Of a stretch of 64,000 nt of DNA, positions 28,882 through 61,811 are shown one piece after another. Below the pieces are notes generated by a model that was not told the DNA's origin, did not search any database, and was given only the letters and a program-made list of their open reading frames with translations. Made by a program: the position numbers and the translations under genes. This DNA comes from a virus. The first letter of the stretch is position 1, and the number at the start of each line of letters is the position of its first letter. The DNA is taken from IMG/VR virus record IMGVR_UViG_3300037507_002920, positions 1-64,000 of that record. One strand, given 5' to 3'.

Positions 28882-29082
28882 ATGATAAAAATTAACGTAA
28901 ACAAAGAAAAGGGATTAGAATCCGCCCTAAAAAAATATAAATATAGGGTACAAAAAACAAGACAAAATGAACAATTAAGAGATAGGGAAGAGTTTGTAAA
29001 ACCTTCGGTCGAAAAAAGAGACCAAATGCTTAAAGCAATTTATAGACAAAAAATGAAGAGTCAAGAAGAAAAGTCAAACTAG
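28882..29082 (+). CDS. rpsU: Ribosomal protein bS21 homologue
   Basis: 66 residues, the size of Bacteroidota bS21. The pattern LESALKKYKYRVQKT, then LRDREEFVKPSVEKRDQMLKAIYRQK matches host bS21 (basic helix, REFxKPSxxKR). bS21 binds the 30S platform near the 3' end of 16S rRNA. In Flavobacteriia it helps to hide the anti-Shine-Dalgarno sequence, so a phage copy could change which mRNAs are started. It stands alone on the plus strand, inserted between head genes, with its own promoter, and overlaps the convergent gene by 9 bases. Confidence 0.9.
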   Translation: MIKINVNKEKGLESALKKYKYRVQKTRQNEQLRDREEFVKPSVEKRDQMLKAIYRQKMKSQEEKSN

Positions 29083-31673: not shown

Positions 31674-33455
31674 TTAACGCTTTTTACCAAATAACCAAGA
31701 ATATTGTTTATAGTGCTCCTTTGTTGCGTTATTTTGATAAGGAGAGTTAATCAATTCTCCACTCGAAGTCATTGAACCAATTTGGTCAAATGCTGTACCG
31801 TAAGAATAAAAAGATTTATTGGGTTCATACGTTCTTTCAGACAATGTCCAAGATTCTAACATTGCTTTATTTGCGTTTTCGTTTTTCAGTAGTTGATTAA
31901 AACATGTGTCCCCAACATATATCGCCATTGACATACTAATAATCGAGTCGTCATGTGCTCCTTTCATATGGTCCGCCCTACCGTTAATATATACAAAAGT
32001 GTTTAATTCGTTCATTAGTCTTGTTGACCTGACTTGAAAACCTTTTCTTAAATGTTCTTCAAAAGCTGCGATTATTTGAGTTCTTTTATTATTGAAATTA
32101 ATACCGGGAATTTTATCCATTATTTTTTTATTATACTCCCAAATATTATTGGTATTCATCCCATCAATATATAAATTTTTATAGTTTAATTCTTGTAATT
32201 TTCTTGATGTCGCAACCCCCATTCCCCCCGTTATATCAATAACAACATAAGCTTCATACAAAGTTGCCCATTTGTAAACAATGGTGGCTAAGTCATCGGG
32301 TGGTATTTTTCCAACATATTCAAGGACTTGTTCTCTTTCATCAAAATCAATAATATTAATTGAAGAAAAATCTTCACTATCACCTCTACTAACATCAACA
32401 GCGGCGATGTATCTGTGACCTTGAACAGGTTCTGTCCATTGCCAAAGAGTACCTTGCATGTATTTTTCTTTAGGTTCTCTTATCATATTTTTTATGATGT
32501 TTTCTTGAACATCACTTGGTATAACACCATCACCTGAACCTAAAAAATCACACTCTAATTCTTGGGCAATTTTCCTTCTATCAAATTTAAATTTTTTGGA
32601 CATTCCTTCAAACCAACTTGAAAATGGTTTATACCCTTGTTCCAAATATTCATTATAGTTATCAATGTCGAAATCATTCATTACGACTTCATTGTCATCA
32701 TATAAACCTCTATTTGTCATGTAATGAACAATGTCATTACATTTAACCCATCTCAAATCTTTTGTATATCTTGGGTCTTTAAACCATCTTAAATCGGTAA
32801 TATGGAAATCATTTAAACCTCTGATAGATTGGTCATAGACACCATAATATATTGCATCATAACCATTAGGTGTTGAAATGAGTATAATCTTACCACCAGT
32901 TGAAAGAGATGCCATGGATGCGGCCCAAAAATCTTCACCGGCTTCGATGTATGCTGCCTCGTCAAAAATTAATATTGTTGGAGTATAACCTCTTAACGCA
33001 TCCGCGGATGTCGCAACGGCTTTAACTTCACATCCGTTGTTTAATCTAAATCTACTTTCTGAATTTTTGTCTGGTGAAAAACCAACATTAATCCAATCAG
33101 GCCATTGTTCAATAAATCCTCTAATTTTATTGGCCATTTCAACAGCGGTATCTTTTTTGTTTGCAATAATTAACACCCTATCTGGATTGTCTTTTTTTGC
33201 TGTTTGTAAACGTTTAGAAACCCATGCCGCTGTTACCGTAGTCACACCCGCTTGACGATATTTTCTTGTTATATTTTCATTGTACTTTTCGTAGTCATTT
33301 AATAATTGTACTTGGTCGGGAAACAATTCTAAGGGAACAAACCTTTTTTGTGTGTTATCATAAGTTTGTAAATATGTTTTTAAAGCATACGGAGTATCCT
33401 TAATAATTTTAGCATATTCTTTTAATTGTTCTATTTTTTGATTATTCATACTCAT
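31674..33455 (-). CDS. Terminase large subunit, gp17-like
   Basis: 593 residues. The ATPase has a deviant Walker A (RQAGVTT, 67-73) and Walker B ILIFDEA (161-167). The RNase H-like nuclease has AAVDVSRGDSEDFS (about 348-362), YVVIDITGGMG and a late HDDS. It pumps DNA into proheads and cuts it. The Lys usual in Walker A of P-loop proteins is absent, with Arg67 as the likely substitute as in other terminases. The start could be ATG 33455 or the next Met two codons on. It is preceded by a terminator and is first in the portal-protease-capsid order. Confidence 0.95.
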   Translation of the reverse strand: MSMNNQKIEQLKEYAKIIKDTPYALKTYLQTYDNTQKRFVPLELFPDQVQLLNDYEKYNENITRKYRQAGVTTVTAAWVSKRLQTAKKDNPDRVLIIANKKDTAVEMANKIRGFIEQWPDWINVGFSPDKNSESRFRLNNGCEVKAVATSADALRGYTPTILIFDEAAYIEAGEDFWAASMASLSTGGKIILISTPNGYDAIYYGVYDQSIRGLNDFHITDLRWFKDPRYTKDLRWVKCNDIVHYMTNRGLYDDNEVVMNDFDIDNYNEYLEQGYKPFSSWFEGMSKKFKFDRRKIAQELECDFLGSGDGVIPSDVQENIIKNMIREPKEKYMQGTLWQWTEPVQGHRYIAAVDVSRGDSEDFSSINIIDFDEREQVLEYVGKIPPDDLATIVYKWATLYEAYVVIDITGGMGVATSRKLQELNYKNLYIDGMNTNNIWEYNKKIMDKIPGINFNNKRTQIIAAFEEHLRKGFQVRSTRLMNELNTFVYINGRADHMKGAHDDSIISMSMAIYVGDTCFNQLLKNENANKAMLESWTLSERTYEPNKSFYSYGTAFDQIGSMTSSGELINSPYQNNATKEHYKQYSWLFGKKR

Positions 33456-39264: not shown

Positions 39265-39321
39265 ATTTGATAATTTATCATCAAATTATACGCCATTTAT
39301 TAAAAATTGACAAATTGTCAT
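39265..39321. promoter_or_regulatory. Two inverted repeats between hsp20 and clp
   Basis: ATTTGATAATTTATCATCAAAT (arms ATTTGAT/ATCAAAT with nested GATAA/TTATC) lies at 39265-39286, and TGACA-AAT-TGTCA at about 39308-39320. TTGTCATGT recurs near 39346. Symmetric sites between two divergent chaperone genes look like repressor operators. The binding protein is unknown. Confidence 0.4.
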
Positions 39322-39355
39322 GTTTTTTTTAAATTTAAAGTTATTTTGTCATGTA

Positions 39356-39387
39356 TTTGTTTTTTCTTATGAAATTTCGTATATTTG
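39356..39387 (+). promoter_or_regulatory. Bacteroidota-type promoter of clp
   Basis: TTTG at 39356-39359, a 20-base spacer and a perfect TATATTTG at 39380-39387 match the Bacteroidota primary promoter. The start codon follows 13 bases later at 39401, giving a very short leader. Confidence 0.7.
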
Positions 39388-39400
39388 TAAAAAAAAGTAT

Positions 39401-41419
39401 ATGTCAGTTGATTTTTTCGAAGAAGGGAATAACTCAAATCCTAAAAAAACAAAAAAGGGTTCAACAACTCCAATCCTTGATAATTTTTCAAGAGATTTAA
39501 ATAAATTAGCAGAAGAGGGTAAAATTGACCCAGTAGTTGGTAGAGAAAAAGAGGTTAAAAGAATTGCACAAATTTTGGCTCGAAAGAAAAAAAATAACGC
39601 GATAATTGTTGGTGATGCTGGTGTTGGTAAATCCGCATTGATTGAGAAATTAGCACTACAAATAGTTAATGGTGATTGTCCAACTAATCTAATAGATAAA
39701 AAATTATTATCTTTAGATTTAACTTCATTGGTTGCCGGTACAAAATACAGAGGACAATTTGAAGAAAGAATTAAAGCAATTTTAAATGAATTACAAAACG
39801 AACCGAATGTAATATTGTTTATTGATGAAATGCACACAATCGTTGGCGCGGGTAATGCAAGTGGTTCGATGGATGTCGCTAATATATTAAAACCAGCGTT
39901 GGCTAGAGGAGAAATTCAGTGTATTGGTGCAACAACATTTGATGAATACAAAAAGAATATTGAAAAAGACGGAGCGTTAGTCAGAAGATTTCAAAAAATA
40001 ATCTTAAAAGAACCTTCACCAGACGAAACTGTTCAAATTTTAAAAAATTTAAGAAATTCATATCAAGATTTTCATAAAGTTTATTACAGTGATGAAGTTT
40101 TATCAACCATTGTCACGTTATCTTCAAAATACATAACAGATAGACAATTTCCTGATAAAGCAATTGATGTTTTAGATGAATTGGGTTCAGATAAAAAAAT
40201 CAACACTAAAATACCCGAATCAATTGAAAAATTGAAAAAAGAATCGGATGAATTAAGACTCAAAAAAATACAAGTTGTAAAAAATCAACAATATGAACAG
40301 GCGGCTAAATTAAGAGACGAAGAAAAGAAAATTTTAACAAAACTACAAGAAGAAAAAAATAAATGGTTAGATACACAAAAAGATAGTAAAATACCAATAT
40401 CTGTAGATGATGTTTACGAAATGGTTTCTCAAATTGTTGGTGTACCAATTTCCAAAGTAGATGTTGTTGAAACCGATAATCTTTTAAATTTAGAAGAAAA
40501 ATTAAAATCAAAAGTTATTGGACAAGACGAAGCGATTTCTATTATTTCAAAATCAATAAGAAGAAACAGGGTTGGGATTAAAGACACAAATAAACCAATT
40601 GGTTCGTTTATCTTTTTAGGTTCAACAGGTGTTGGTAAAACTTATTTAGCAAAATCAATTGCGGAAATATTATTTAACGACCCGAATAAAGTTATTCGAG
40701 TTGATATGAGTGAATATATGGAAAAACATAATGTTGCTAAATTGATAGGAGCACCACCGGGCTATGTTGGATATGATGAGGGTGGACAATTAACAGAAAA
40801 AATTAAAAATAACCCATTTTCTGTTGTTCTTTTTGACGAAATAGAAAAGGCACACAAAGATGTTTTTAATATTTTGTTACAAATCTTGGATGAAGGTCAC
40901 CTTACAGATTCTTTTGGAAGAAAAGTTAGTTTTTCAAATGCCATAATAATTATGACATCTAACATTGGGGCAAAAAAAGTATCTGATTTTGGGAAGGGCG
41001 TTGGTTTTGAAACTTCTTTTAGTGATAATCAGAACACAGAGATTAAAAAATCAATAGTTCAAAAATCATTAAAACAATATTTTAATCCTGAATTTTTAAA
41101 TAGGGTTGATGATATAATTAGTTTTAATCCTCTTGTAAAAGAAAGTATTGATAAAATTATTAACCTTGAATTAGAAAAACTCAAAAAGAGATTAGAACTA
41201 AAAAAATATAAAATTTCATTTGACGCTTCTATTACTAATAGAATATCTGAATTAAATACACAAGAAGAATTTGGTGCAAGACCAGTAAAAAGAATCATAC
41301 AAAACTTGTGTGAAGATTTTTTAAGTGAAATGATATTGAGAGGTGAAATTTTAGAAAATCAAAACATTTTATTGAAATTTAAAGATGGTGAAATAAAAAT
41401 AACAAAAAAGAGAGTATAA
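39401..41419 (+). CDS. Clp ATPase, ClpC-like, without N-domain
   Basis: 672 residues from ATG 39401 (earlier in-frame codons lie in the promoter). There are two AAA+ modules: Walker A GDAGVGKS (71-78) with LFIDEMHT, and GSTGVGKT with LFDEIEKAHKDVFN. A short UVR-like helical linker (QQYEQAAKLRDEEKKI) lies between them, as in ClpC. The segment VSDFGKGVGFETS after TSNIGAKK is in the place of the ClpP-docking loop of Bacteroidota ClpC. The Clp_N repeat domain is missing: only about 40 residues precede the first ATPase. It may commandeer host ClpP or act as an unfoldase. Confidence 0.85.
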   Translation: MSVDFFEEGNNSNPKKTKKGSTTPILDNFSRDLNKLAEEGKIDPVVGREKEVKRIAQILARKKKNNAIIVGDAGVGKSALIEKLALQIVNGDCPTNLIDKKLLSLDLTSLVAGTKYRGQFEERIKAILNELQNEPNVILFIDEMHTIVGAGNASGSMDVANILKPALARGEIQCIGATTFDEYKKNIEKDGALVRRFQKIILKEPSPDETVQILKNLRNSYQDFHKVYYSDEVLSTIVTLSSKYITDRQFPDKAIDVLDELGSDKKINTKIPESIEKLKKESDELRLKKIQVVKNQQYEQAAKLRDEEKKILTKLQEEKNKWLDTQKDSKIPISVDDVYEMVSQIVGVPISKVDVVETDNLLNLEEKLKSKVIGQDEAISIISKSIRRNRVGIKDTNKPIGSFIFLGSTGVGKTYLAKSIAEILFNDPNKVIRVDMSEYMEKHNVAKLIGAPPGYVGYDEGGQLTEKIKNNPFSVVLFDEIEKAHKDVFNILLQILDEGHLTDSFGRKVSFSNAIIIMTSNIGAKKVSDFGKGVGFETSFSDNQNTEIKKSIVQKSLKQYFNPEFLNRVDDIISFNPLVKESIDKIINLELEKLKKRLELKKYKISFDASITNRISELNTQEEFGARPVKRIIQNLCEDFLSEMILRGEILENQNILLKFKDGEIKITKKRV

Positions 41420-41595: not shown

Positions 41596-41943
41596 ATGTA
41601 TCAAGATAAACCAAAAGACACTATTATAAAAAAATTGGTAATTAATGAGTCATACAAAGACTTTCCCGAATTTTATCGAAAAAATAAAGAAGAGATATAT
41701 AAAAACATTGTTCTGTCATTTAAAAGTATAAATAGAAAAGACAAACAAAACGTTGTTTTATATTTACACGCAAAAATTAATGGGCTACAATGGGAAACAA
41801 ATTTAAAATTTAATAAAAAAGAATGTTTTGTGTTGGTTAGAGACATATTACCCTTTTTTGAGGAAAAAGAAGAATATGAATATTGTGGTGTAATTGTAAA
41901 TTTATATAATAAATTAAATTCAAATCTTCAATTAGAAGAATGA
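41596..41943 (+). CDS. Small protein of unknown function
   Basis: 115 residues from ATG 41596. Upstream in-frame codons cross the terminator and promoter and are rejected. Helical start (YKDFPEFYRKNKEEIYKNIVLSF), then a strand pair (NVVLYLHAKINGLQWETNLKF) and an acidic patch (FFEEKEEYEYCGVIV). A TATATTTA element 17 bases upstream gives it its own promoter. It converges with the lectin/dockerin gene (16-base overlap). The family is not recognised. Confidence 0.5.
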   Translation: MYQDKPKDTIIKKLVINESYKDFPEFYRKNKEEIYKNIVLSFKSINRKDKQNVVLYLHAKINGLQWETNLKFNKKECFVLVRDILPFFEEKEEYEYCGVIVNLYNKLNSNLQLEE

Positions 41944-43676
41944 GATAAATCACAATCTCCTTTAATTATAAATTTTATGTTTAAAATAACATTATTTACA
42001 CCAAAATTAATTATAAAAACTTGATTTGATGGTATTGAATTAAAATTATTGAGATTAATTAAATTAAAATCATTTTCATTATACCATAAAGTTTCATTGA
42101 AATACATTAACCCTGAAATTCTTGCCGCCAATAAATAAGAATCGACAATTGTTATTTTTCCATCGTTATTAATATCTCCGGCTTTCATTTTTTTTCCATT
42201 ATTTAAAACTAATCCAATAGGTAATTGATTTGGTGTGTTTTCATTTTTTGATTCATTAAACAATAAATTGAAATCATTATTCGTTAATGAGTCAAAAAAT
42301 GAAGGAACTATTTTATAGGTTGAATTGTGTTTTGTTGGGTTTAAAACATATGAACCGTCAGCACTAACATTTATAGTTTGTAATAGTGTTTCCGTATTAT
42401 TCTCAACAAGATAAAATTTTAATTGTGGTCTGTTTAAAACATTATTGGGTATTGATATTGTTCCGCTTATTGTTTCAGAAATTGAAATGGTGGCAATTAC
42501 TTCAGTTCTTGTTGAACTAACACAACCCGTTGAAATATTTCTTGATTGAGCATAATATTTTGTTGTTTGTGAAATAAATGGTGTTGTAAATGTCGTATTC
42601 CCAACTAATATAGGGTTACCTCCCGTTAAATTTGAATACCAATCAACAGTTTGACCAACACCGACTATTGCGGATATGGTAACCGTACCACTACCCGTTC
42701 TACTACCATTTACACCGATTGGTTTTGATGGCTCTTGCAATGATGTACATGTAATTTGATGGGTCACAAAACCCGTATAAAAATCCGTAAAATTTTGTTC
42801 CGAAGGGTCTGACCATGTTCCAAATTCAACAACATATCCACTTATTGAACTAGGAAAAGAACTCGCCGGTGGACCGAAATCGTTCCAACAATTCCCACCA
42901 CCCCATTTTGTAACAGCATAATCTTCTCCACTTCCCCAATTATTTGGTTCACCACCACACCAGTTATTATATTTACCAGCAACATTTCCACCTGAATTTG
43001 ATGTCTTTATTATTGTACCATTTTCAGGACCAGCATCTATTACCCACACCCCTTCTTGTGATACGTCATTTAAAGCAAATAAGATGTTATTTCCGGGTAC
43101 ATTGGATTGTATAAAATTTTGTTCATCTTGTGATGTTATTGTTAAAAGATATCCTGTTTGTCCTTTAAATGTTTGTTGTGTCGATAATGTTTTAATATTG
43201 TTATATATCGAATGACTTGTCCCCGTATTTCCAGATGGCCAAGACATTGGTCTATAAAAGTGTCCATTTGTTGGTAAATAATAATACCCTGTTGGATTAA
43301 TTGTGGCACTTACTGCAATGTAAACGTTACCAGGTGATGAACCGGTATTTATTTTTAATGAACTTAATGTTGTGTTGATATTTGATTGGAGCCCAGTAAA
43401 ACTAATTCTCGTAAAATTTAACCAAGAAGAATACCCCGTACTTAAAGATACTCCCGTTGTTGATGTTAATGATAAAGTGGTACCTATTGGTGGATTTACT
43501 AAACCAATAGTGACAAGTAATGTTGAGGTTGAATTAAAGTTGGAAATTGAAAATCCACCAGCATTTTGATTTGATGTGTTTTGTGAAAAAGTTGTTGCAG
43601 ATGGTGATGTTATGTTTTGTGAAAAAACAAGGATTGGTGATAAAATTAAAATACATAAAAATATAATTTTTTTCAT
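41928..43676 (-). CDS. Secreted C-type lectin plus dockerin-like protein
   Basis: 582 residues. A signal peptide (MKKIIFLCILILSPILVFSQ) is followed by a beta domain. A C-type lectin domain spans about 120-290, with the signature NNWCGGEPNNWGSGEDYAVTK and GGNCWNDF (EPN is the sugar-specific calcium triplet). An Ig-like/Ser-Thr-rich part and a CnaB-like segment follow (390-470), then a dockerin-like EF-hand (KAGDINNDGKITIVDSYLLAARISG, about 498-522). It ends with NIKFIIKGDCD, without a T9SS sorting domain. The last 190 residues align with the middle of the 635-residue cohesin protein. Expected location is the periplasm or cell surface, possibly held by a cohesin-dockerin contact. Confidence 0.65.
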   Translation of the reverse strand: MKKIIFLCILILSPILVFSQNITSPSATTFSQNTSNQNAGGFSISNFNSTSTLLVTIGLVNPPIGTTLSLTSTTGVSLSTGYSSWLNFTRISFTGLQSNINTTLSSLKINTGSSPGNVYIAVSATINPTGYYYLPTNGHFYRPMSWPSGNTGTSHSIYNNIKTLSTQQTFKGQTGYLLTITSQDEQNFIQSNVPGNNILFALNDVSQEGVWVIDAGPENGTIIKTSNSGGNVAGKYNNWCGGEPNNWGSGEDYAVTKWGGGNCWNDFGPPASSFPSSISGYVVEFGTWSDPSEQNFTDFYTGFVTHQITCTSLQEPSKPIGVNGSRTGSGTVTISAIVGVGQTVDWYSNLTGGNPILVGNTTFTTPFISQTTKYYAQSRNISTGCVSSTRTEVIATISISETISGTISIPNNVLNRPQLKFYLVENNTETLLQTINVSADGSYVLNPTKHNSTYKIVPSFFDSLTNNDFNLLFNESKNENTPNQLPIGLVLNNGKKMKAGDINNDGKITIVDSYLLAARISGLMYFNETLWYNENDFNLINLNNFNSIPSNQVFIINFGVNNVILNIKFIIKGDCDLSHSSN

Positions 43677-46808: not shown

Positions 46809-48716
46809 TTATACTTTTATAAATTGTTTAGTTAATTGTTTATTATAATTATTCAGAATTAGAAAATAATTTCCATTAGAAGCGTATGTCATATCAATTT
46901 GTTTATATGCGACCGTTTCCATTGGATTTGTTATAACTTGTCCTACGTTTTGAATCAACTTACCTCTGATATCATAAATAGATGCGTCCATAAACATATT
47001 TTGATTTGGAAATTTAACTTCTAATTCAAACCAACCTGTTGTTGGGTTTGGTCTTATCGATGCTGTTATTTCTTCAACAACTTGATGGGTCTGTGGAATT
47101 GACCTATAACTTAAAACTGCGATTTGGTTTTGTAACTCAATATTTAAGTGGTCACCATTTTCGTCCGAGGCATCCATCAATTCTCTAATTTGAATATTTG
47201 TTACGATATCCTCACCACCAATTGGTGAAAATTTAAGTTTAAAAGGTGTCGATTGACCAATTAAACCGTCTCTTTGTTGATTATTCATTCCGCCAAACCT
47301 AACAGTACCTGATAGTTCATCGTGTGTCACATATTGTAACCATGGGCCACCATTAAAATTGGACACGATTTCTTCAAATTTAACTTTTGTTCTGTCATAC
47401 TTCATTTCAAATTGTAGTCCATAGTTATTATCCCCATTTGTGTTTATGTTAAATGGAACATATAACGATGGATTACCAACAGAATATGTGTTTGGTATGT
47501 TAATATCTAATTTACCTTTATAAATTGCTCTGGCAACTAAATTACCATTACTATCCCACACTCTTGAAGAGAATGTTCTATCAACATCACCTTGTATAAA
47601 GTATTTAATATTCACAACCAAATTTTCGTTACCAACACTATCCGTGATAAAGTTTGTTGTGTTTAAAAAATTAGGCCAAATAGACCATTGGTTTTGACCT
47701 AAAACTAAGTTATCATAATCAGATGCTTTAAACACTCTAATCATGTTCGTAGTATCTATTTTTCTTAAACCACTAACATTTGCGTATATCAAATACGGGT
47801 CACCACCATCTAAATTACCATTTCCATTTAAATCAGCAATCAAATAAGATAAACCATTTTTCAAATAAAATCTTGAATACGTTTGATTAACGTCTGTTCT
47901 TGTAAATTCATCATATGTTTTTACGGCATCTGATATCGTTACCGCATAATCTCTGAAAGTTTCCATACTATCAGATGGGAATCTTAAAAGTAATTTATAT
48001 CTAGTGTTTCTATCAACATTATTTAAACTATAGTTACCTGAAGTATCACATAAAGAAGAAGACACAAACTCACCAGTGTTTAATTTAGTACATATAACCA
48101 TTGGTCTTCTACCATCTAATTTCATAGTCGGTGGAAGTTCAACATTACCACTTATAACCAAGTTACCACCCAAATCTAACTTCATACTCTTGTAAGTCAA
48201 ATTCGCTACGTTATCACCAATACTTGTACCGTCTTTTTTAAACAATCTAACCCAGTTCACGTGTACACTATCTTCCACGAAATTGGATTGAACATTGTTA
48301 ATTAAAAATTTATTGTGAATGATGTATATTGCTCCTGAAATTTGAGAACCACTTGATAATACTAAAAAGTTTCTAGCGACGGTCCAATTTGTGTCATTAA
48401 CATACCCATATAAACCCGTTGCTGGACTATATGAACCATACTTAAAGTTATCATATTCGTTATATGATATTGCCGGTGTCATGGTATTAACACTATTATC
48501 CACAGTTGTTGAAACGTGTGTAAATAAATCCTTCTTAAATTGGAAATCGATTTGAAACGACCTTACATCTTTTGTTGGGTCGGGGATGTATTGAAATATT
48601 ACATCTAACGTATCGTTTCTTCTTATTGTAGATAATTGTTGAAAATTACCTACGCTCTGTGAATAACCTACATAGGTTATCATCATTAACACAAATGTTA
48701 AAATTAGTTTTTTCAT
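46809..48716 (-). CDS. Secreted cohesin/dockerin-type protein with T9SS sorting domain
   Basis: 635 residues. The signal peptide MKKLILTFVLMMITYVGYSQ is followed by a beta domain, a CnaB-like segment (about 190-260) and a dockerin-like EF-hand (LIADLNGNGNLDGGDPYLIYANVSG, about 290-315). A cohesin-like domain lies at about 400-535 (LYVPFNINTNGDNNYGLQFEMKYDRTKVKFEEI). The C-terminus (IRPNPTTGWFELEV, ASIYDIRGKLI, GNYFLILNN, KQFIKV) is a type A T9SS sorting domain, used by Bacteroidota to send proteins across the outer membrane. A phage gene with this tag implies display on the infected host cell. Confidence 0.75.
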   Translation of the reverse strand: MKKLILTFVLMMITYVGYSQSVGNFQQLSTIRRNDTLDVIFQYIPDPTKDVRSFQIDFQFKKDLFTHVSTTVDNSVNTMTPAISYNEYDNFKYGSYSPATGLYGYVNDTNWTVARNFLVLSSGSQISGAIYIIHNKFLINNVQSNFVEDSVHVNWVRLFKKDGTSIGDNVANLTYKSMKLDLGGNLVISGNVELPPTMKLDGRRPMVICTKLNTGEFVSSSLCDTSGNYSLNNVDRNTRYKLLLRFPSDSMETFRDYAVTISDAVKTYDEFTRTDVNQTYSRFYLKNGLSYLIADLNGNGNLDGGDPYLIYANVSGLRKIDTTNMIRVFKASDYDNLVLGQNQWSIWPNFLNTTNFITDSVGNENLVVNIKYFIQGDVDRTFSSRVWDSNGNLVARAIYKGKLDINIPNTYSVGNPSLYVPFNINTNGDNNYGLQFEMKYDRTKVKFEEIVSNFNGGPWLQYVTHDELSGTVRFGGMNNQQRDGLIGQSTPFKLKFSPIGGEDIVTNIQIRELMDASDENGDHLNIELQNQIAVLSYRSIPQTHQVVEEITASIRPNPTTGWFELEVKFPNQNMFMDASIYDIRGKLIQNVGQVITNPMETVAYKQIDMTYASNGNYFLILNNYNKQLTKQFIKV

Positions 48717-49606: not shown

Positions 49607-49679
49607 GACTCTGTAGCTCAGTTGGTAGAGCAATACACTTTTAATGTATGGGTCGGCAGTTCGAACCTGCCCAGGGTCA
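49607..49679 (+). tRNA. tRNA-Lys (anticodon TTT)
   Basis: Acceptor stem GACTCTG/CAGGGTC, D arm AGCTCAGTTGGTAGAGC, anticodon arm ATACA-CTTTTAA-TGTAT, T arm GGCAG-TTCGAAC-CTGCC. All stems pair. CCA is not encoded (discriminator A). It reads AAA/AAG, the commonest Lys codons of this A+T-rich phage. Confidence 0.97.
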
Positions 49680-49697
49680 CATTAATTATGAAACAAT

Positions 49698-49771
49698 GCT
49701 CCTGTCGTCTAACTGGTTAGGACATCCCCCTTTCACGGGGAAGCTTGTGGGTTCGAGTCCCATCGGGAGTA
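49698..49771 (+). tRNA. tRNA-Glu (anticodon TTC)
   Basis: Acceptor GCTCCTG/CGGGAGT, anticodon arm CCCCC-TTTCACGGGG with TTC in the loop, T arm GTGGG-TTCGAGT-CCCAT. CCA is not encoded. It follows tRNA-Lys by 18 bases and is probably cotranscribed. Confidence 0.95.
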
Positions 49772-49790
49772 CTAAAAATATTTTTAAAAA

Positions 49791-50033
49791 ATGATACAAA
49801 AAATTTTAGACATCTATCCTGATGAGGATATTTTAATGGCCGACGGTTTCGACGATGCAATAATAGGTATCGAAACAAAAACAATGAGATTAATCTATTC
49901 TGTTAGTAAGTGTATTGATGTACTGACAAAACAAGGTATGAGTGAAATGGATGCCGTTGAATACTTTGAATTTAATGTTTCTGGTTCATATGTAGGAGAA
50001 AAAACACCGATATGGTGTGAAGACTATATTTAA
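49791..50033 (+). CDS. Small conserved phage protein between tRNA genes
   Basis: 80 residues, acidic: DEDILMADGFDDAIIGIETKTMRLIYSVSKCIDVL, then DAVEYFEFNVSGSYVGEKTPIW. This compact alpha/beta protein type is found in many large phages and has no known function. It is placed between tRNA-Glu and tRNA-Leu, 19 bases after the former, so it may share the tRNA transcript. The leader is A/T-rich without a Shine-Dalgarno site. Confidence 0.65.
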   Translation: MIQKILDIYPDEDILMADGFDDAIIGIETKTMRLIYSVSKCIDVLTKQGMSEMDAVEYFEFNVSGSYVGEKTPIWCEDYI

Positions 50034-50035
50034 TA

Positions 50036-50067
50036 TTTGAAATCATTAGTTTTTTGTGTATCTTTAT
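50036..50067 (+). promoter_or_regulatory. Promoter before tRNA-Leu
   Basis: TTTG at 50036-50039, a 20-base spacer and TATCTTTA at 50060-50067, one base off the consensus. tRNA-Leu starts 11 bases later. Confidence 0.55.
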
Positions 50068-50078
50068 ATAAAAAAATG

Positions 50079-50162
50079 CCATCGTGTCGTAATTGGTAGC
50101 CGATACAGACTTAAACTCTGTTGGGAGTAATTCCCGTACCGGTTCGAGTCCGGTCGGTGGTA
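50079..50162 (+). tRNA. tRNA-Leu (anticodon TAA)
   Basis: Class II tRNA of 84 bases with a long variable arm (TTGGGAGTAATTCCCGT). Acceptor GCCATCG/CGGTGGT, anticodon arm CAGA-CTTAAAC-TCTG with TAA. CCA is not encoded. It reads TTA, the dominant Leu codon here. Confidence 0.95.
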
Positions 50163-50169
50163 CAAAGTT

Positions 50170-50241
50170 GGGCCCATAGTTAAAGGGATATAACCACAGA
50201 TTTCTAATCTGTTATTCCTAGTTCGAGTCTAGGTGGGCCTA
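50170..50241 (+). tRNA. tRNA-Arg (anticodon TCT)
   Basis: Acceptor GGGCCCA/TGGGCCT, anticodon arm CAGA-TTTCTAA-TCTG with TCT, T arm CCTAG-TTCGAGT-CTAGG. It lies 7 bases after tRNA-Leu. It reads AGA, the dominant Arg codon of this phage. Confidence 0.95.
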
Positions 50242-50261
50242 CTATATTTATATTATAAGTT

Positions 50262-50723
50262 ATGAAAAATTTTAAAACACTACACGGAATACCGATAGAT
50301 AATATAATAGAATATATAAGAAATTTTTTATTAGAAAAACCTGACACCGAAATATTAATTGGGTCAGATTCTCAATCATTTGGTAATTTTAAAACGGTGT
50401 ACGGTACTGTTATCGCTTTATACATGAAAGGTAAAGGTGCCCATATTTTGTGCACAAAAGAAACCACACCATTTGAAAAAGAGATGTCAGTTAGATTAAT
50501 TAATGAAGTTTGGAAAGCCATAGAAGTTGCTGAGTTTTTAAGAAATAACGATTTACCTAAAGTAACGTGGATTGATATCGATTTAAACCCAGACCCAAAG
50601 TTTAGGTCAAACAAGGTATTAAGACAGGCTGTTGGTTTGGTTCAAGGTATGGGATATAAGGTTAGATACAAACACAATGGGGCTATGACTACCTACGGAG
50701 CCAATCATTTAGTGAGACTTTAA
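50262..50723 (+). CDS. RNase H-like protein, YkuK/DUF458 family
   Basis: 153 residues. ILIGSDSQSFGNFKTVYGTVIALYMKGKGAHI, then WIDIDLNPDPKFRSNKVLRQAVGLVQGMGYKVRYKHNGAMTTYGANHLVR is the full pattern of the YkuK (DUF458) family, an RNase H-like fold with acidic residues in GSDSQ and DIDLNPD. The substrate is not established. Its place directly after four tRNAs and before two long RNAs suggests RNA processing, but that is inference. A TATTTATA motif (50245-50252) lies 9 bases upstream. Confidence 0.75.
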   Translation: MKNFKTLHGIPIDNIIEYIRNFLLEKPDTEILIGSDSQSFGNFKTVYGTVIALYMKGKGAHILCTKETTPFEKEMSVRLINEVWKAIEVAEFLRNNDLPKVTWIDIDLNPDPKFRSNKVLRQAVGLVQGMGYKVRYKHNGAMTTYGANHLVRL

Positions 50724-50833: not shown

Positions 50834-50848
50834 GTTCTTTGAAAATTT
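50834..50848 (+). promoter_or_regulatory. boxA-like leader element
   Basis: GTTCTTTGAAAATTT lies about 50 bases after the promoter and just before the first helix of the structured RNA. It resembles the rRNA antitermination boxA (TGCTCTTTAACA in E. coli) and, as I recall, the leader of Bacteroidota rRNA operons. An almost identical element precedes the tmRNA. Confidence 0.45.
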
Positions 50849-50852
50849 AAAA

Positions 50853-51714
50853 ATAGGGCCGTCTATGGTCCTTAAATAAACCACGAAAGTGGTATAAAGT
50901 GACTCACTCGGTTAGATGAGTTGCGGCTTTCGAAAGAGAGCTCGAGTAGACAAACGAGATATCGTTTAACCTTGAGTAACGAGGGTGACACTGTAGTGAA
51001 AGTGGTAAAACGAATGGGGGATGCGGGTCCTTCATTTGAGGTGGGAACACCAATAAGAATAACTCGTAGGATTTATGTGAGAAACATAGTCATCCAACTA
51101 TGTAATCGCGTGATTCAATATGATGGGAATCTTAAAACCGAAAGGTATGACTTTGTACAGGTGGTGCTGTTATTGTCCTTGATTTGAACCTACCAAGGTT
51201 CTTTTCTTGAAGGAGTCCAAAAATATGGAAATCGGGAGATTTCAGAGGGTAGTTTAGTATCGTGTTGTTCAAAAGATGACATGGCTGGTCGATGAGCCAC
51301 TACCTTCATAATCCGCAAACCAAAAAACTTGTTATTTTGATTAACAAAATCTAATAAAAAGGAAAAGTGCTCATCAGTCGTCGGAAACAGGTGACTACTT
51401 AGTAATGAAACGTTCATTGCCGTAGAGGGTCCCAAGCCCGATACGATTTTTAAGAAAGTCCTCTAACCCCGCAAGGGTTAATTGGGAAGGCATTCTCGAG
51501 GAGTGATTAGTATTGAGAGAGTATCCGATGACTCAAGGATTGGTTAATCTAATTGGCCGTCACTGGTTGGTACAACTCAAAAGGTTGTGGATATAAAGGG
51601 AAACAATAATCCTTTTAAAGTCAACTAATAAAACATGTAATCTCAGTGTTTTTTTTTTCTTGATTTAAAATCAAGTGGTGGAGCAAAGAGTCGAAAGGCC
51701 CTCAACAATTAATT
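50853..51714 (+). ncRNA. Giant structured noncoding RNA (GOLLD/ROOL-like candidate)
   Basis: About 860 bases with no convincing open frame and visibly higher G+C than the surroundings. Closing stem: AGGGCC (50854-50859) with GGCCCT (51697-51702). Local helices include CCAC-GAAA-GTGG (50881), ACTCA/TGAGT (50901-50920), TATGT/ACATA (51074-51089), GAACCT/AGGTTC (51187-51202), GGTAGT/ACTACC (51248/51299), AATGA/TCATT (51404-51418), AACCC/GGGTT (51465-51479), ACAAC/GTTGT and CTTGATTT/AAATCAAG (51659-51675). AGAGG/CCTCT (51424/51460) and TCCCAA/TTGGGA (51430/51482) cross, forming a pseudoknot. Size, phage origin and neighbouring tRNAs recall the GOLLD and ROOL families. I cannot match their consensus by eye. 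Confidence 0.7.
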
Positions 51715-51743
51715 AAGGTTAGAAAATTCTAACCTTTTTTTTT
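51715..51743 (+). terminator. Rho-independent terminator of the giant RNA
   Basis: AAGGTTAGAA-AA-TTCTAACCTT, a perfect 10-pair stem, is followed by TTTTTTTT. It lies 12 bases after the closing stem of the structured RNA and before the tmRNA promoter, so the two RNAs are separate transcription units. Confidence 0.9.
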
Positions 51744-51802: not shown

Positions 51803-51817
51803 GTTCTTTGAAATTTT
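51803..51817 (+). promoter_or_regulatory. boxA-like leader element before tmRNA
   Basis: GTTCTTTGAAATTTT ends directly at the first base of the mature tmRNA. Its first 11 bases are identical to the element before the giant RNA (50834). It may be an antitermination or a 5'-processing signal shared by both RNAs. Confidence 0.45.
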
Positions 51818-52235
51818 GGGGATGAAAGGAATCGACACACGTGTAAATGTTAAATGGGCATGCGGTCAAACATCATCTATGACCATAATCAATGATGGTA
51901 CAAATTAAGCGGCAACGTTTATAACAACATGGAAATTGCGGGTATCCTCGCTTCTTCCAAGGTAGCAGTAGCCTAGGCGAATCTATCAATGGGTCGGGAG
52001 ACAAATAACCTAGAAACAGAAGTCTTTAAGGTGTGATACAACCTAAAGTGTCAAGGGTCTCGTTCAGAGTACTACCTGTAAATCCACGAAAGTGGTAAAA
52101 GTGAATTCGACACAGTTATTGGTAACAATGTCAAAATAGGAACCATTTATTTGTCAGTTGTGAACTAATTGAATAAGCATGTAGTCCATTTATGATTTCT
52201 CGGGGTGGACGGCGGTTCAATTCCGCCCATCTCCA
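51818..52235 (+). ncRNA. ssrA: Transfer-messenger RNA (tmRNA)
   Basis: 418 bases. The ends fold as tRNA-Ala: acceptor GGGGATG (51818) pairs with CATCTCC (52228-52234) with a G3-U70 wobble, the alanine identity element, and discriminator A. GGAATCGACA matches the conserved 5' D-like region, and TAAGCATGTAG, GGACGGCGGTTCAATTCCGCC the 3' region and T arm of bacterial tmRNAs. Pseudoknot 1 is visible: GGTCA/TGACC crossing CATCAT/ATGATG (51864-51897). A tag frame follows 13 bases later. CCA is not encoded. It rescues stalled ribosomes and tags the unfinished protein. Confidence 0.93.
51911..51976 (+). CDS. tmRNA tag-peptide reading frame (predicted)
   Basis: Starting at GGC 51911, 13 bases after pseudoknot 1, the frame encodes 21 residues and stops at TAG 51974. 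It starts Gly-Asn, as Bacteroidota tags start with Gly, and ends Lys-Val-Ala-Val-Ala, a hydrophobic/Ala end typical of ClpXP degrons. It is longer than the 9-11 residues of most host tags. The resume codon is placed by spacing, not proven. Confidence 0.6.
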   Translation, partial: GNVYNNMEIAGILASSKVAVA

Positions 52236-52246
52236 CTGGCTAACTT

Positions 52247-52298
52247 TTTGTACTTTCCGATAAGTACAAAGAAACCCACTCACAAGGTGGGTTTTTTT
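52247..52298 (+). terminator. 3' hairpin and terminator of tmRNA
   Basis: TTTGTACTT/AAGTACAAA (52247-52270) forms a hairpin just past the mature 3' end, probably used in processing. AACCCAC/GTGGGTT (52273-52293) followed by TTTTTT is a rho-independent terminator. Confidence 0.85.
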
Positions 52299-59405: not shown

Positions 59406-61811
59406 TTAGTTTTCTCTTCTTTCATTTGGTTGATAGTGTTTAATTCTATCATGCCAAATTGGTGATGCCAATAACACCGCCGGTTTTAGTTTATTTTCTT
59501 TTGTCAATTGATACATATACGACATCCAAGTTTGTTCAAATGGGTGAGCCCAAGTTGTTTCAATAAACATTTTATAATTACCTTCTTTACTTACAATCAT
59601 CGGCCAGTTTGCATAATAAATTTCACCATCAATGTAAGATAACCCATCCATACTTCTAATATTTTTGAAATTAGTTAGGGGTACATTTGGGTCTAAACCT
59701 GTTACAGGTAGTTTATCGTAATGTGGCCAATCTCTTGTTCTAATATTTTGTGGGACATTGTACCAAGAACATTGTTTATCGTTATCAAAATAAACTTCAG
59801 TAAACGATAATTTAAGAAAATCAAATTTTTCTTTTAACATTATTCTGTGCACTAAATTGTAGAGATTTGGTATGTATTTTCTAAATCCATTTCTACAAAA
59901 TTGTCCTTCTAATTCGGGTGGATTAACTGTCATATCATCTTCAAAGAAAAACATGAAGTCAGCATCTGAATTATGAAAATGTTCTGCAGCTGATTGTCTA
60001 CCACCACATATACCCGTATTACCCTCTAAACTAATGTATTCAAAATTATACTCTTCGGCAATTTTTCTATTTTCACTTCTAACCTCTTCAGTTGTTGAAT
60101 TATCTAATAAAACTAAATGAGGTTTAGTTAACCACTCTGATGTCTTTTTCATCGACTCTATGGTATGCAATACTTGTTCAGGAAAATTAAAAGTTAAAAT
60201 GTATAAATTTGTTTTAACTTTCTCAACGTCTCTATCTGTATATTTAATAAAATTTTTAGAAATCGATGGTAGTTTTGTTTCGATAATTTTAATATTATTA
60301 TCTATTATCGCTTGTGTAAATTTCACAATCAATCCATTACCGTCTAATTCAAATCTTTTGTAAATGTGGGGTTCTAAATAGGACATTAAAGTAAATATAC
60401 TTTCTTCCGTACCCATATATCCCGTATTTAGTGTGTTCGTTAATAATGAGTAGTATGTTGCATTCGCTTCGTTTATTTGTTGTTTATGTCCACCAAATAA
60501 GCCACCTCTACATACATATTCGACTTTGGTTCCCGCGATTTTATTCATTTCACTAAACGTAAATCCATGAATTTCAGTATTAGCCTCATACGGATAACTT
60601 AAGAATAAAAATGGGTTACCGATTTCTGTTAATTTATCTAATACTTTATTTCCAACAAAATGACCATGTGGTACGGTATTAGTAATACCAGCATCTAACC
60701 AAAAGAAATATTCAGTGTTAAAAGGATTCCAAATCGTCGCACTATGTAATAAAAACATTTTTGATTGTACTATCGGATTATAATATTCTAAAACCGCTTG
60801 CGGTGACCCTGACAACCAACCAGCTTGGTCTAACCAATCAGGGTTAGTTCTTATATTTTGAGTTTTATCCCAATGTGGTTTATATATGTCATTTTTTATA
60901 TCATCTAATTCATAAAGTTTAACAAATGTATTTTCTTTAGAACGTTTTTCCCAAACCAAATATTCATATTCTTTAGAAATATAAATAAACATGTTAACAG
61001 GTATATCCAAAAAATTTTTAAAATGTTCTATATAATGGTCAAAATCTCTACCGGGACGATTTATATTCCATAATCCTGTTACTATTGTTAAATCTTTATT
61101 GATTACTTCTATAGTTGGTTTTGATAAATAATTAAATAATTTAGTTTTTTCTTCTTGAGATAAAGATTGTATTTGATTTTTTAATAATATGATATTATCA
61201 ATATCATTAATATCACTAATAATGTAATCATTAAAATTAGAGTTAATAAAACTTTGATATGTTTCTGGTATCGAAGATTGTTGTGTTTCAAGAAAAATAG
61301 TGTTATTATCTCCTTTAACAAATAAACCATAATCAAATCTTAAACAAAATGGTTTATATCCCTCAAAACGTTCAAAAAAATTAATAAATGTTAAATCATC
61401 CTGTAAATGAATTTCATATTCATTTTCAAAGTGGATTCCTTGAGGAGAATTAAATGGGACACCTATAATAACATCGCTACGATTAATTTTATTTAACAAC
61501 AATTTAGCATCTTCTAAGGCTATATGTTCTATAACATCACCAAAAATAATCAAATCATATTCATCGAAATCAATGTCTAATTTAGTTATGTCACCAATTA
61601 TCACTTTTTTATATTTTTCAGTTAAGTTATAATCTTTAACGTAATTAGAAAAAACTTCAACACAATCTAAGTTACTGTACCCTTCATTATGTAACATATC
61701 ATAATATGCACCTGCACCCGCACCTACATCTAAAATTTTAATAGACTTATCGTATTTATTTAATATGTAATCTTTGGTTTGTTGTTTAAAATATCCTGTA
61801 CTAAATGGCAT
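59406..61811 (-). CDS. Methyltransferase - HtrL/WlaTC-type glycosyltransferase - GT2 fusion
   Basis: 801 residues in three parts. Residues 1-210 are a SAM-dependent methyltransferase (ILDVGAGAGAYYDML, DLIIFGDVIEH). Residues about 235-520 match the HtrL/WlaTC glycosyltransferase-like family (VTGLWNINRPGRDF, FWLDAGITNTVPHG, FGGHKQQINEANATYY). Residues about 535-800 are a GT2 enzyme (NLYILTFNFPEQVLHTI, GNTGICGGRQSAAEHF, FFFEDDM as the metal motif). The domains may act in sequence on one glycan: two sugar transfers and a methylation. Neighbours are gmd and two more GT-A genes. The fusion is unusual. Confidence 0.8.
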   Translation of the reverse strand: MPFSTGYFKQQTKDYILNKYDKSIKILDVGAGAGAYYDMLHNEGYSNLDCVEVFSNYVKDYNLTEKYKKVIIGDITKLDIDFDEYDLIIFGDVIEHIALEDAKLLLNKINRSDVIIGVPFNSPQGIHFENEYEIHLQDDLTFINFFERFEGYKPFCLRFDYGLFVKGDNNTIFLETQQSSIPETYQSFINSNFNDYIISDINDIDNIILLKNQIQSLSQEEKTKLFNYLSKPTIEVINKDLTIVTGLWNINRPGRDFDHYIEHFKNFLDIPVNMFIYISKEYEYLVWEKRSKENTFVKLYELDDIKNDIYKPHWDKTQNIRTNPDWLDQAGWLSGSPQAVLEYYNPIVQSKMFLLHSATIWNPFNTEYFFWLDAGITNTVPHGHFVGNKVLDKLTEIGNPFLFLSYPYEANTEIHGFTFSEMNKIAGTKVEYVCRGGLFGGHKQQINEANATYYSLLTNTLNTGYMGTEESIFTLMSYLEPHIYKRFELDGNGLIVKFTQAIIDNNIKIIETKLPSISKNFIKYTDRDVEKVKTNLYILTFNFPEQVLHTIESMKKTSEWLTKPHLVLLDNSTTEEVRSENRKIAEEYNFEYISLEGNTGICGGRQSAAEHFHNSDADFMFFFEDDMTVNPPELEGQFCRNGFRKYIPNLYNLVHRIMLKEKFDFLKLSFTEVYFDNDKQCSWYNVPQNIRTRDWPHYDKLPVTGLDPNVPLTNFKNIRSMDGLSYIDGEIYYANWPMIVSKEGNYKMFIETTWAHPFEQTWMSYMYQLTKENKLKPAVLLASPIWHDRIKHYQPNERREN

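Follow-up and report, generated by a model that had tools for sequence, protein, structure and literature searches.

Genomic context of the tmRNA locus

The window analysed here comprises positions 1 to 64,000 of the viral record IMGVR_UViG_3300037507_002920 and carries a tmRNA gene preceded by four tRNA genes and a GOLLD RNA, together with a gene for a ClpC-like AAA+ unfoldase (Table 1). The portal protein is of the T4 type, and the gene for ribosomal protein bS21 lies on the strand opposite to the terminase and portal genes, an arrangement that places the virus in the bS21 phage group. Freshwater members of this group have predicted Bacteroidetes hosts and complete genomes of 293-331 kb (PMC9723584). 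A bS21 gene was detected in 37 of the 50 tmRNA-bearing records examined. The host is probably a lake member of the Bacteroidota. Shine-Dalgarno-like cores were found in none of 49 open reading frames, a weak signal given that only 1.2 were expected. Among the remaining genes of the window, large proteins at 46809-48716 and 41928-43676 (both minus strand) showed a T9SS C-terminal sorting domain (Por_Secre_tail) and a CHU_C-associated Ig domain, and an 801-residue protein at 59406-61811 (minus strand) combines methyltransferase, HtrL_YibB and glycosyltransferase family 2 domains.

GOLLD is located upstream of the tmRNA, with 168 nt between its end and the tmRNA start. Since a terminator-like hairpin follows each of the two RNAs, they are probably made as separate transcripts. 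GOLLD was also present in 27 of the 50 tmRNA-bearing viral records, mostly at a coordinate distance of no more than about 4 kb from the tmRNA, and the two large structured RNAs thus form a recurrent neighbourhood. An RNaseH-like protein (PF04308) is encoded between the tRNA genes and GOLLD at 50262-50723 (plus strand). The leader motif GTTCTTTRAAA precedes most tmRNAs of the class described below; a second copy in the window, at 50834, precedes no called RNA. The sequence TAnnTTTG corresponds to the -7 promoter element of Bacteroidota. Of 33 relatives, 29 have such a box between positions -18 and -29, as compared to 2.3 in shuffled sequences; at this position it is absent from the window itself.

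Table 1. Features of the window relevant to the tmRNA locus. Coordinates refer to the 64,000-nucleotide window.
Feature	Coordinates	Strand	Support
Gene for bS21 (ribosomal protein), on the strand opposite to the terminase and portal genes	28891..29049	+	
Terminase large subunit, query for relatives	31674..33455	-	
ClpC-like AAA+ unfoldase lacking the N domain, VGF loop, likely start at codon 28	39320..41419	+	
Four tRNA genes: Lys(ttt), Glu(ttc), Leu(taa), Arg(tct)	49607..50242	+	ARAGORN, Rfam
GOLLD RNA	51245..51649	+	RF02032, 314.5 bits, cut-off 150
Terminator-like hairpin between GOLLD and tmRNA	51715-51736		
Conserved leader motif GTTCTTTGAAA directly upstream of tmRNA	51803..51813	+	
tmRNA (ssrA) gene, one-piece, mature RNA	51818..52235	+	ARAGORN, Rfam RF00023, covariation in 33 relatives
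Acceptor stem 5' strand, partner 52228-52234, third pair G-U	51818..51824	+	100% paired
Helix 2 5' strand CATGC, partner GCATG 52177-52181	51859..51863	+	Covariation
Pseudoknot PK1	51864..51899	+	Covariation, helices 3 and 4
Tag frame GNVYNNMEIAGILASSKVAVA, 21 codons and TAG stop	51911..51976	+	ARAGORN, tag alignment, synonymous excess
Tag peptide stretch AGNVYNNMEIAGILASSKVAVA	within tag frame 51911..51976	+	
Pseudoknot PK2, contains class-diagnostic block ATAACCTAGAAACAGAAG	51991..52025	+	Covariation, helices 5 and 6
T stem-loop	52211..52227	+	Co-variation of T stem (helix 7); window loop intron-free
Intrinsic terminator-like hairpin 3' of tmRNA	52268..52298	+	

Structure of the tmRNA gene

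ARAGORN called a tmRNA at 51818-52236 (plus strand) with the tag GNVYNNMEIAGILASSKVAVA followed by a stop codon, and the Rfam model RF00023 matched 51818-52238 over model positions 1-374 with 88.5 bits (cut-off 47, E 5e-33), both in agreement with the original prediction of a phage-encoded tmRNA. The discriminator A is position 52235, and CCA is not encoded. For covariation analysis, we aligned 33 distinct complete tmRNA genes and evaluated 36 base pairs from the acceptor stem, T arm, helix 2, PK1 and PK2. In this alignment, 98.5% of cells were paired and 19 of the 36 pairs had changed on both sides, a result equalled by none of 500 shuffles. Helix 2, for instance, reads CACGT/ACGTG in relatives as opposed to CATGC/GCATG in the window, and in one relative the acceptor end is altered to GGGTCTA/TAGATCC with pairing kept. 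The tRNA-like ends and PK1, which had been recognized from the window letters alone, are thus present and co-varying, and the G3-U70 pair is found in all 33 distinct relatives. Minimum free energy folding gave a z-score of -1.98 relative to shuffled sequences, a mild improvement of the kind expected because tmRNA is pseudoknotted. The window tmRNA is real.

In five tmRNA genes recovered in the tag scan described below (L130, L140, L146, L173 and L178, the last in G005), a group I intron interrupts the T loop, with scores of 61.7-72.5 bits (cut-off 50); the L206 tmRNA likewise appears to hold an intron. If the customary intron boundaries are assumed (U before the intron, G at its end), the insertion site apparently lies after the first loop nucleotide. 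Group I introns in the T loop are known from bacterial tmRNA genes (883 sequences), and the viral cases resemble these in the element and the loop it interrupts; the introns of Bacteroidia are located one site further on (PMC11915505). That self-splicing introns are kept inside the gene in some relatives suggests that the spliced product matters.

A long tag under selection

The original prediction of a tag of about 21 residues ending in Val-Ala-Val-Ala corresponds to a frame of 21 codons (51911-51973) that ends in VAVA. Its resume codon, GGC at 51911, follows PK1 at a distance of about 12 nt, a spacing close to that in E. coli. A search for relatives with the terminase large subunit yielded five tmRNA-bearing records, and most differences between their tags are synonymous. 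Scanning IMG/VR with a codon-aware tag pattern then retrieved 53 viral contigs with 32 distinct DNA versions, the window included, and in all 53 a stop codon directly follows a VAA or VAVA-like tag end. As this pattern had fixed much of the tag, a blind scan of IMG/VR was performed with the PK2 block, which lies outside the tag. Most of the listed matches are tmRNAs with quite different yet equally long tags, such as GNVLNNLETLGLISTQEVTVA, GNTFAKMAALGLIAEEAVVKA, GDVFANATVGHFVTEGATVAA and DNVYTNMEACGLIATSTVAVA and more; one group has tags near DEMSTMTFEDLMAFVGADYAVAA, for which the resume codon is less certain. With the search bounds set to 19-23 codons, the matches listed gave 43 distinct tags, of which 41 comprise 21 residues and two comprise 22. 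Over the whole class, tags have 20-23 residues, and nearly all terminate in residues that are small and mostly non-polar (-VAVA, -VAA). No obvious phage proteins with tag-like ends were seen in the window.

To infer whether the frame is translated, we counted single-base codon changes between close pairs in the tag-blind set. Among the matches listed, 238 changes were synonymous and 112 non-synonymous (n=350), i.e., a synonymous share of 68% as compared to a neutral expectation of 26%. Tag pairs are non-independent, an effect limited by counting nearest-neighbour pairs only, for which synonymous to non-synonymous ratios were 31:17 in codons 1-13 and 28:12 in codons 14-21. The excess in both parts argues that the whole long frame is translated. 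ARAGORN found 37 of the 95 class segments and printed many of these with only the last 8 residues of the tag; such misses and shortened tags may be the reason why the class went unnoticed. Taken at face value, the printed 8-residue tags would mean that the true tag is a short ATSKVAVA/ATSNVAVA frame that begins with a GCA codon some 39 nt downstream and that, with its initial alanine, would look like an ordinary tag. We rejected this very improbable reading because codons 1-13 are under the same selection and because the GCA codon lies about 51 nt behind PK1, as opposed to about 12 nt for GGC. The non-standard long tag that had been proposed for this phage tmRNA is hence strongly supported and belongs to a tag type conserved across a wide viral class.

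Distribution of the class

Based on sequence comparison, the window tmRNA is assigned to a large group, virus-only in the data searched, with long tags conserved by selection. The matches to the PK2 block that were listed are a minimum, and more class members exist. Neither the tag pattern nor the pattern GGGTCN{5,14}ATAACCNAGNAACAGAAG had an exact match in 84,980 bacterial and archaeal species represented by one genome each, a result that excludes identical motifs as distinct from more distant ones. The related claim that the tag is unlike those of Bacteroidota hosts is thereby supported indirectly, through the absence of both patterns from these species genomes. A Bacteroidota tag string had no match in a literature search. 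A 5'-end pattern was discarded as a probe for the class, as it returned only unrelated permuted tmRNAs with the tag ANDNYASEMALAA. These permuted genes reside in nine unrelated viral contigs (L082-L090), and those read by ARAGORN encode this tag.

Genomic islands often integrate at ssrA (PMC11915505), and a tmRNA gene on a viral contig could accordingly be a non-functional remnant of a host ssrA acquired at an attachment site. The gene is, however, complete, its pairs co-vary, its tag is under selection, and the tag and PK2 patterns occur in no bacterial genome searched. Contradicted by these conservation data, the remnant reading has next to no probability and was rejected.

Compared with the standard one-piece bacterial tmRNA (RF00023), the class shares the tRNA-like ends, G3-U70, helix 2, PK1, a tag frame, a further pseudoknot and the T arm. 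It differs by its tag of 20-23 residues with a conserved middle part and by a PK2 block absent from the 84,980 species genomes, and it obtains modest scores with the model. Phage-carried tmRNAs as such have precedents in cultured phages and pelagiphages (PMC9004378, PMC11915505): tmRNA was reported for 402 of 18,146 phages (PMC9004378), and a 2025 tmRNA database lists 79 unique phage sequences among 97,179 (PMC11915505). The present class differs as a one-piece form with a family of long tags, and the window tmRNA region and two divergent members gave no BLASTN match among 50,697 GenBank phage records.

Viral ClpC, ClpP and SmpB

The ClpC-like unfoldase of the window is a candidate reader of the tag. 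It contains two AAA+ modules, a UVR middle domain and the ClpP-docking tripeptide, and its closest PDB chain is B. subtilis ClpC (3j3s), with the alignment starting at residue 149. The Clp_N N-terminal domain is absent from the window protein, and in relatives the D1 core is preceded by no more than some 30 residues. In all 24 ClpC sequences compared, a docking tripeptide (VGF, LGF or MGF) and both Walker pairs are present. Three records have the ClpC-like gene in two overlapping pieces (G005:75444-77530, G071:57551-61456 and G032:43541-47394). The pieces overlap close to the second Walker A motif (residues ~430-446), and the split possibly reflects an intein or an intron within the P-loop.

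Among the 50 large tmRNA-bearing records, most of which are fragments, 44 carry a ClpC-like gene, eight a ClpP gene and nine an SmpB gene; of the eight records longer than 160 kb, seven have ClpC and seven have ClpP. In five viral ClpP sequences, the Ser and His motifs are intact, and the proteins are close to true ClpP structures. All nine SmpB genes lie within 6.5 kb of the tmRNA, eight of them on the same strand, and the SmpB gene begins 75 nt downstream of the tmRNA in G052 and G061. In the record that contains the window, a fragment of 107,216 bases, neither SmpB nor ClpP was found. As a control, we inspected 12 terminase-related records, of which ten carry ClpC and only one a match to the PK2 pattern (G033, among the other 11, does have a tmRNA). 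ClpC is therefore a core gene that also occurs in relatives without detected tmRNA, its presence alone does not tie it to the tag, and the control weakens co-occurrence as evidence for a functional link. The proposed partnership between the tmRNA and a nearby phage ClpC-like ATPase is plausible: the protein is a ClpC-type unfoldase with a ClpP-docking loop, yet its gene lies about 10 kb away and is shared with relatives lacking a detected tmRNA.

Discussion

In trans-translation, tmRNA is charged with alanine, enters the ribosome in an SmpB-dependent manner, directs tagging and releases the ribosome. We propose that the phage tmRNA would be charged with alanine through its G3-U70 pair and would enter stalled ribosomes with SmpB, provided by the host in the case of the window phage and by the virus in those relatives that encode their own. 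Stalled ribosomes would then add the virus-specific 21-residue tag and be freed. The tag would act as a degron read by the ClpC-like unfoldase without N domain on ClpP, the latter made by the host or, in the largest relatives, by the phage. Its long conserved middle part might serve as a specific handle that shifts products from the host adaptor/ClpX route to the phage's own route. The degron reading is suggested by a tag and PK2 that are virus-only in the searched data, by the fixed tag length and by the presence of ClpC in 44 of 50 records. On the other hand, the -AA tag ends could equally suit host ClpXP, the co-occurrence of a core gene such as ClpC is non-specific, and the window record lacks SmpB and ClpP. 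Weighing these points, we consider the whole chain, in which trans-translation adds a virus-specific degron and viral ClpC reads it together with host or viral ClpP, an evenly balanced proposition. A viral tag-and-destroy pathway in which the virus-only tmRNA degron is served by the virus' own ClpC and ClpP, not by host proteases, is put forward more tentatively, as a possibility about which we are rather doubtful.

The same tag ends also fit a phage tmRNA that replaces the host molecule, keeping up rescue when host RNA is degraded or when defences cut tRNAs or tmRNA. Host ClpXP would then clear the tag, and tag length would be incidental. In line with this, the gene sits in a cluster with tRNA genes and GOLLD, the small residues at the tag end resemble those of ordinary degrons, and SmpB and ClpP are missing from most records. 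If the C-terminal residues alone mattered, however, one would not expect codons 1-13 to be under selection or the length to be fixed at 21, and we regard replacement as unlikely, though a credible competitor. The tag might alternatively be a stable mark for rescue without degradation, with ribosomes freed and the product spared or relocated, e.g., to a phage compartment. Bacterial tags most commonly have 10 aa (PMC11915505); the viral tags, being far longer and having a conserved middle part, could serve such a purpose. As nearly all of these viral tags end in small non-polar residues and are almost always accompanied by a gene for a ClpP-docking unfoldase, we judge a non-degrading mark to be quite improbable.

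Viral tmRNA and viral SmpB as such are already known, both having been reported in huge phages (Al-Shayeb 2020, PMC7162821). In its available text, that report describes no tag comparison, Clp, 21-residue class or combination of tmRNA, SmpB, ClpC and ClpP. The freshwater bS21 phages share with the present viruses bS21 opposite to TerL and portal, low GC, genomes of up to 331 kb, a Clp protease and lake habitats, and the main text on them names no tmRNA (0 occurrences; PMC9723584). As far as the literature shows, the new elements are the class with long tags of fixed length, its selection pattern and absence from searched bacterial genomes, the viral T-loop introns, and the place of the gene beside GOLLD, SmpB and ClpC/ClpP genes.

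Until now, phage tmRNAs have mostly been known as solitary genes whose use is unclear. The lineage described here is large and retains a long, selected tag together with ClpC, in some members with ClpP and SmpB; its viruses may label incomplete proteins for degradation by a protease of their own. If the viral tag-and-destroy pathway exists, the virus would take over the removal of products from stalled ribosomes in infected cells. The system allows testing whether a phage redirects the products of ribosome rescue to its own protease, and it offers a candidate orthogonal pair of degron and unfoldase.
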